A DNA stretch of 64,000 bases from contig JABIVD010000025.1 in the NCBI GenBank assembly GCA_018667335.1, positions 1 to 64,000 of the forward strand. Direction: 5' to 3'. The translations under genes were made by a program, and so were the position numbers. A model generated the notes under the pieces. That model saw only the letters and a list, made by a program, of their open reading frames with translations. It ran no database searches and was not told the origin of the DNA. Positions 10,251 through 11,840 of this stretch are shown here, in pieces. Within the stretch, counting starts at the first letter, position 1, and each line of letters begins with the position of its first letter. The stretch comes from Rhodospirillaceae bacterium (GTDB taxonomy: Bacteria > Pseudomonadota > Alphaproteobacteria > UBA6615).

Positions 10251-10408
10251 GGTCTTCTCCCGCAGGTTGCTGTTGGGGTAAAACTAGCTGCGGGGCGCGG
10301 TGCGGACAATTGCCTGACCGCTCACAACATCGTCAGAGGCGGCGTAGAGGCGTTTTGACCCCCGTCCGCCACAGTCCTATGATCGGGGCCTGTCTTGAGA
10401 GGAAAATC

Positions 10409-11101
10409 ATGACCACCAAATATCATCTGATCAGTTCGTTCACCTGACCATGGGTCCAGCGCGCCGTGATCCTTTTGCGCGCCAAAGATGTCGAGTTCGA
10501 TGTCACCTACGTCAATCTCCGGGAGAAGCCCGACTGGTTCCTCGAAATCTCGCCCCATGGCAAGGTTCCTGTCCTGAAGGTCGGTGACGACATTCTGTTC
10601 GAATCCAGCGCCATCGCCGAGTTTCTCGACGAAATGGTCCCGCCGCGGCTCCACCCGGAAGACCCGATCGCGCGCGCCAAGAACCGTGCATGGACGGATT
10701 TCACGCCGACTTTCGCGGGCGCCTTGAGCAAGATCCACTACGCCAAGACCCGCGAAGACATGGAAGCCGCGGTTGCCGACGCACCAACGGTCCTCACCAA
10801 GGTCGAGGCGGCGCTCGCCGGTCGCGGCAACAACGGGCCGTTCTTCAACGGGCCGGACATGTCACTGGTGGATGCGGCCTACGCGCCCTTCCTGCAGCGC
10901 TACCTGCTGATCGACGAAGGTCTGAAGAACGACGTTCTGAAAGACTTCCCGCTGATCCGTGCCTGGGCCGAGACGCTCATGGCCGACGAACGGGTGACCG
11001 GCGCCGTGCCGGACAATTTCGAGGACGAGTTCATCGGCAACCTGCATCGCCGCGATTTGTATGCGCGGGAATTCTTCGACAACACGATCGCCGCCGAATA
11101 A
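10409..11101 (+). CDS. Glutathione S-transferase family protein with in-frame TGA at the active-site position (probable selenoprotein)
   Basis: Reading from ATG 10409 (GAGAGGAAAATC just upstream) gives MTTKYHLISSFT, then TGA at codon 13 (10445-10447), then PWVQRAVILLRAKDVEF in the same frame, and the frame stays open to 11101 (230 residues). The TGA falls exactly where Cys is expected in the CPWxQR/CPxxxR motif of omega/beta-like GSTs and glutaredoxins. The thioredoxin-like domain continues with GKVPVLKVGD and ESSAIAEFLDE, followed by an all-helical C-terminal domain. Restart at GTG 10466 would delete the first strand and the active site. A hairpin suited to a bacterial SECIS follows the TGA. 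Alternatives are a true nonsense mutation or a sequencing error for TGC. Selenocysteine machinery is not in this window. It is followed 31 bases later by a YCII-domain gene. Confidence 0.8.
10452..10482 (+). promoter_or_regulatory. Candidate bacterial SECIS hairpin
   Basis: Just after the TGA codon a 6-bp G/C stem can form between GCGCGC at 10459-10464 and GCGCGC at 10477-10482, with a 12-base loop beginning CG. There are 17 bases between TGA and the loop, and G is the second loop base; this agrees with the general bacterial SECIS layout as I recall it (short stem, G among the first two loop bases, loop about 16-37 bases from UGA). A competing 5-bp helix (10452-10456 with 10468-10472, including one G-U pair) overlaps it. 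SelB binding is inferred, not shown. Confidence 0.5.
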
Positions 11102-11132: not shown

Positions 11133-11840
11133 ATGGCCAAGGATCCGTCCAACCCCGTTGAAAATCCGGGTGGCTACCGGCCCGACGACCCGCGATACGG
11201 GCTTTCGGGTCAGGCGCTGCAGGATTACTACCTGTCGCAACCGCCGCAGTGGTTCATCCGCTCCATGTACGCGCCCGACGCACTCGACCGGCGCGCGCAG
11301 GCGATGGCAGAGCATCTCGCCTATCAGCAGAAATTTCGCGACAAGGTCCACTTCGCCGGGCCGCTCCTGAGCGACGACGGGTCCGCCCCCCTCGGCACCA
11401 TGGCCATTATCGAGATGCCCGACCGGGCCGCCGCCGAGGCTTACGTGGCCGGTGACGGCTTCGCCAGGGCCGGCATGCTGGAGCCGCCGACGATCACACG
11501 CTTCGTCTCGAGCAAACGCCTGAAGCATTTCGACCGGGCCCCGGATCCAGACCTGCAGCTGTTCGTGTGCGAATGCCTCGACGGGCCCGATGCCGCGACC
11601 CTGCGGCCACAAACCGCCGCCGACCATCACGCCTATCAGGGCTCGATCATCGACCGCTACATGGCCCACGGGCCCCTGCGGGGCGACGACGGCGTCGCGC
11701 TGCTCGGCAGCCTCTTTCTCATTGAAGTCGCCGACCGAAACACCGCGGAGCTCCTGGTCGCCAACGAACCGATGACCGCAGGCGGCGTGTTCGGCGCGGT
11801 CAACATCCACCGCTGGCGCCTCGGGAAGTCGCTCTCCTAG
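11133..11840 (+). CDS. Protein with two YCII-related domains
   Basis: A 235-residue soluble protein built of two YciI-like ferredoxin-fold repeats. The first spans roughly residues 40-120 (FIRSMYAPDALDRR, then HFAGPLLSDDGSAPLGTMAIIEM); the second spans about 135-230 (LFVCECLDG, then YMAHGPLRGDDGVALLGSLFLIEV). In each, the conserved HxxxGPL plus D-G-x-x-G-S/T pattern is visible. YCII proteins are small dimeric enzymes or binding proteins related to muconolactone isomerase and EthD; a fused pair mimics the dimer. The N-terminus is an extended Pro-rich segment. Start ATG 11133 follows AAAGGACGGGAC. It lies between the GST and the PanE-like reductase and is probably co-transcribed with both. Confidence 0.82.
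   Translation: MAKDPSNPVENPGGYRPDDPRYGLSGQALQDYYLSQPPQWFIRSMYAPDALDRRAQAMAEHLAYQQKFRDKVHFAGPLLSDDGSAPLGTMAIIEMPDRAAAEAYVAGDGFARAGMLEPPTITRFVSSKRLKHFDRAPDPDLQLFVCECLDGPDAATLRPQTAADHHAYQGSIIDRYMAHGPLRGDDGVALLGSLFLIEVADRNTAELLVANEPMTAGGVFGAVNIHRWRLGKSLS

Follow-up and report, generated by a model that had tools for sequence, protein, structure and literature searches.

In the stretch of Rhodospirillaceae DNA analysed here (64,000 nucleotides from a marine alphaproteobacterium, referred to below as the window), a glutathione S-transferase (GST) gene carries a TGA triplet where the codon of the catalytic cysteine is expected. Is this triplet a stop, or does it encode selenocysteine (Sec)? We regard it as almost certain that the gene codes for a selenoprotein, namely an omega/DHAR-like GST (Sec-GST) with Sec as catalytic residue 13 in the motif UPWVQR. 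The TGA is conserved, the genome contains the Sec decoding machinery, Cys and Sec replace each other among relatives, the RNA after UGA is constrained and the predicted fold is that of a GST; Sec insertion itself, SelB binding, the reaction and the substrate are steps that we infer. The features discussed are collected in Table 1.

Table 1. Features of the Sec-GST locus (positions in the window) and related genes located elsewhere in the genome (G000, contig C5; L016, a 20-kb stretch of that contig; L087)
Feature	Position	Strand	Details
Probable ribosome binding site of ATG 10409	10397..10402	+	purine-rich GAGAGG
Sec-GST coding sequence	10409..11101	+	230 residues, U = residue 13, stop TAA included
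In-frame TGA (UGA), probable Sec codon	10445..10447	+	codon 13; catalytic-Cys position
Putative bacterial SECIS	10459..10482	+	stem 10459-10464/10477-10482, loop 10465-10476 starting CGUGA
Gene with two YCII domains	11133..11840	+	31 bases 3' of Sec-GST stop
SelD fused to pyridine-nucleotide-disulphide oxidoreductase	L016:16185-18416		743 aa; Cys, not Sec, in CGGCGAK motif
PrdB-like gene with in-frame TGA	L016:18480-19712 (G000:C5:166482-167711)	minus	VLVPV-U-PQC; adjoins selD
SelW-like gene with in-frame TGA	around L087 1492-1707 (G000:C5:207046-207261)		CKIU; TGA kept in 14/24 family genomes
Cys-containing GST paralogue	G000:C5:167956-168516	minus	36% identity; adjoins PrdB-like gene and selD

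The initial annotation described an ATG with a ribosome binding site, twelve codons, an in-frame TGA followed by PWVQR and 217 open codons, and expected standard gene calling to truncate the gene at GTG 10466. The 10409-11101 frame bears this out. The purine-rich run is located 6 bases 5' of the ATG, and comparable runs precede the ATG of the orthologues. The TGA is followed by CCA TGG GTC CAG CGC (P-W-V-Q-R) and the frame then stays open up to TAA 11099-11101. In the read-through protein, Pfam recognises GST_N_2 (residues 12-75, 1.8e-18) and GST_C_2 (residues 118-188, 2.2e-9). The standard-code ORF obtained in this frame is 10466-11101, which starts with GTG and lacks the active site; automatic annotation would thus cut the enzyme just past it.

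Orthologues were collected from genomes of the same family, from a scan of genome contigs and from 385 genomes of the class. After removal of duplicates, the set comprised 37 distinct sequences with TGA at codon 13 (this gene included) and 10 with a Cys codon at that position (TGC in nine, TGT in one). The other 36 TGA sequences are 57-92% identical to the one in the window. Within the family a full-length orthologue was found in 16 of 24 genomes, counting the source genome, and all 16 have TGA at codon 13. No residue other than Sec (TGA) or Cys occurs at position 13 among the 37 and 10 orthologues, the outcome that the alignment of homologues had been expected to give for a selenoprotein. Since the same TGA is kept in independent genomes, a sequencing or read error, which had been named as a possible cause, does not account for it.

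The hairpin after the TGA also formed part of the initial reading. Its geometry stands: a short stem of 6 bp (GCGCGC/GCGCGC), G as the second loop base and 17 bases from TGA to the loop. As evidence it proved weak, as its stability does not exceed that of shuffles (z -0.93) and the centroid fold has a 12-base loop; the minimum free energy (MFE) structure reaches an 8-nt loop solely through a single G-U pair. The bacterial SECIS model of PMC13188914 places the apical loop 16-37 nt after UGA and asks for a G among its first two bases and an MFE of <= -7.5 kcal/mol, and the hairpin, with 17 nt, G in the second place and -13.6 kcal/mol over 46 nt, falls within these bounds. The model also sets the apical loop at 3-9 nt and its stem at 4-16 bp (PMC13188914); here the 6-bp stem is in range, and the loop is longer than this in the centroid, inside it in the MFE structure and 7 nt in some orthologues. 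No SECIS match was found by Rfam at Sec-GST, and the RNAalifold consensus of the TGA set folds poorly. Among 33 distinct orthologous sequences only one compensatory pair was seen (L056, G-C to A-U), and this covariation is not significant (33 of 500 shuffles match it).

Constraint on the codons tells more. The TGA set has 93 conserved columns; among their sense codons, synonymous constraint is strongest at V20 (z 13.8), R18 (z 10.6) and A19 (z 10.5), whose codons CGC GCC GTG (10460-10468) form the 5' stem and the start of the loop. Among the 37 TGA orthologues, V20 is GTG in 35, R18 is CGC in 33 and A19 is GCC in 35; in L063 and L065, GTC replaces GTG in the loop. In the Cys set, R18 is CGC in six, CGG in three and CGT in one, and residue 20, where it is Val, is GTC in four and GTG in one; A19 and V20 are too variable in residue there for the same constraint filter.

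Two further genes of this genome carry in-frame TGAs, both at known Sec positions (UxxC of PrdB and CxxU of SelW). The standard code splits the PrdB-like gene into two ORFs; its TGA is kept among relatives in the family, several genomes of which have a second copy. Although the protein families are unrelated, GCGCGCCGUGA is found at +12 to +22 after UGA in both Sec-GST and the PrdB-like gene, and GCGCGCCGUG is kept in nearly all PrdB-like relatives of the family. The SelW-like gene has CCGUGC somewhat farther from UGA, again with a CGUG loop. Of all TGA triplets that the window contains, 5.2% are followed by CGTG at +15 to +23, and a scan of the window for TGA followed by CGTG gave 12 candidates, GST included, the others being unlike known proteins by eye. 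The fold of the hairpin is weak evidence, and the conservation of the loop codons together with the loop motif common to the PrdB-like gene is better evidence.

Two questions about the signal itself follow, both compatible with a selenoprotein. The element seen by SelB could be a smaller or different fold presenting the CGUGA loop, as in L078 (AAGGGC-CGUGAUU-GCCCUU), instead of the 6-bp/12-base hairpin. We hold this to be a serious contender that falls somewhat short of an even chance. Constraint on the loop codons far exceeds the support for stem pairing, some orthologues have a 7-base loop with the same start, and 5-base CGUGN loops occur in several PrdB-like and SelW-like sequences; against it, most of the 33 distinct sequences can form all six base pairs, although R-A coded twice favours such pairing regardless and the Cys sequences also pair in part. 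As to the motif, the sequences suggest that C-G-U-G may be the loop signal for SelB of this lineage. Little resemblance is usually expected among bacterial SECIS elements. We nevertheless lean slightly towards a SECIS loop C-G-U-G-N that is specific to this lineage, recognised by SelB and common to the unrelated Sec-GST, PrdB-like and SelW-like genes, two of which have the identical undecamer at an identical offset. If so, a common signal in this alphaproteobacterial family would be searchable and could reveal further missed selenoproteins.

Whatever the shape of the signal, the TGA could in principle be a real stop, which would make the locus a pseudogene or leave translation only from GTG 10466, with no catalytic residue. 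ORF calling with the standard code does yield precisely 10466-11101, but we consider this reading very improbable, since 37 orthologues down to 57% identity keep the TGA with the remaining frame intact. Furthermore, differences between orthologues in the codons 5' of the TGA are mostly at third positions (2492 vs 870 and 466), as is typical of coding sequence, while farther upstream they are equal over the three positions. This indicates that the codons ahead of UGA are translated, in frame with the rest. GTG 10466 was also considered as the true start and rejected, as no sense codon in the TGA set is under stronger constraint than this one and coding constraint extends 5' of the TGA.

A selenoprotein implied an organism with selA, selB, selC and selD, and the genome supports this. 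Within 13 kb it holds selA (584 bits), selB (466 bits), tRNA-Sec (selC, 71 bits, anticodon TCA) and an adjoining oxidoreductase-selD fusion. The SelD domain of the latter scores 289 bits, which is above its cut-off, and it does not reach the cut-off of the fusion model labelled 'not SelD'. UGA 10445 would be decoded by tRNA-Sec delivered by SelB, which would recognise an element just 3' of the UGA with the loop C-G-U-G-A, and Sec-tRNA would be made by SelA and the SelD fusion. Formate dehydrogenase was considered as the purpose of the Sec system, but nothing scored above the cut-off and no internal stop was seen. Decoding of the UGA to an amino acid other than Sec, be it Trp or Cys by way of a suppressor tRNA or through general reassignment of UGA, is formally conceivable, Sec insertion being deduced, but is just as improbable as a real stop, as no evidence was found in its favour and it has to face the complete Sec system, the invariable replacement by Cys in relatives and the two further in-frame TGAs at known Sec positions.

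The distribution of selB follows the residue at position 13 among near relatives. Of the 37 genomes that carry a TGA orthologue, 35 have selB; one of the two negative genomes is only 77% complete and the other has no completeness figure. None of the five genomes with near Cys orthologues (L053, L054, L058, L059, L062) has selB, while genomes of the distant Cys clade (L067, L080-L083; 44-50% identity) do carry it. Fisher p is 2.5e-5 for Sec versus near Cys and, with the distant clade added, 0.003 for Sec versus all Cys, kinship being ignored in both comparisons. In the tree, the Sec sequences group with the five near Cys ones (strong support, 100/99), apart from the distant Cys clade. The near Cys sequences fall within this group and two changes suffice, though the inner branches are weak. 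With the distant Cys clade taken as outgroup, the tree reads as one gain of Sec followed by one return to Cys alongside the absence of selB, the number and direction of changes being weakly supported.

Three records labelled Gammaproteobacteria (L057, L061, L068) contain Sec-GST with an intact SECIS loop, and their selB match is confined to model positions 1 to 344-361. Horizontal transfer or a wrong label is possible for these records, and so is a divergent C-terminal part of SelB. No near relative of Sec-GST was found on plasmids, and its relatives on viral contigs are distant only, so it looks unlike a mobile-element gene.

The structure predicted by AlphaFold with 31 homologues (pLDDT 93.4, pTM 0.90) has residue 13 immediately before helix 14-25. 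Foldseek ranks human GSTO1 (TM about 0.75-0.80) and plant tau GSTs highest; by sequence, the relatives of solved structure that score best include Leishmania TDR1, pyrimidodiazepine synthase and GSTO1, and DHARs rank lower. In the alignments residue 13 falls on the catalytic Cys of these relatives, in GSTO1 on Cys32 of CPFAER (pairwise alignment; the C32S mutant is entry 3vln), so the TGA was rightly placed at the active-site Cys of the GST motif, here of the form CPxxQR. Sec-GST has the GST fold and, with Sec for Cys, CPxxxR at the start of helix 1, as is characteristic of the omega/DHAR-like class. It resembles omega GST, dehydroascorbate reductases and TDR1 in predicted fold, CPxxxR motif and nucleophile at the start of helix 1, and differs from GSTO1 in being bacterial and having Sec for Cys, at about 23-26% identity in structural alignments; the likeness is one of sequence and predicted fold. 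Omega and DHAR GSTs transfer thiols and reduce dehydroascorbate, with a mixed disulphide between enzyme and glutathione as the intermediate. By analogy, a selenol at residue 13 suggests a reductase. Placed at the start of helix 1, it would carry out glutathione-dependent reduction of thiols or dehydroascorbate via selenenyl-glutathione, as opposed to classical conjugation.

Sec-containing GST-like proteins were reported from Sargasso Sea data in 2005 (four sequences; PMC1088965) and from GOS data in 2008 (twelve sequences; PMC2398784), in agreement with the initial annotation, which placed such proteins in marine metagenomes. Sec-GST is therefore a new and unusually well-supported member of a known selenoprotein family and is not a new kind. 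The family is also listed in PMC9312934 and PMC13188914, and its published representatives include PPR62222.1 and MEK9676863.1. As in the family (COG0625 / PF13409; PMC1088965, PMC2398784), which was first found in marine samples, there is UGA for the conserved Cys in the GST N-terminal domain, a bacterial SECIS-like element and widespread Cys homologues; here we found UGA at the catalytic Cys of this domain, Cys homologues as well as UGA in other organisms, and all four sel genes. This likeness is one of domain, UGA position and gene content. To the published proteins the present case adds the context of a whole genome, 37 orthologues and a Sec/Cys tree, so that a family hitherto represented mainly by short metagenome reads now has genomes, machinery, gene neighbours and a tree.

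The gene with two YCII domains adjoins Sec-GST at 15 of 16 loci read in the family, which makes an operon probable; its product possibly acts in the same pathway. A ketopantoate-reductase-like gene comes next after it in nine of the 16 and was not found in the DNA examined for the remaining loci, and outside the family the neighbours of Sec-GST differ. Counterparts of the Cys-containing GST paralogue are located near selB in many genomes of the family.
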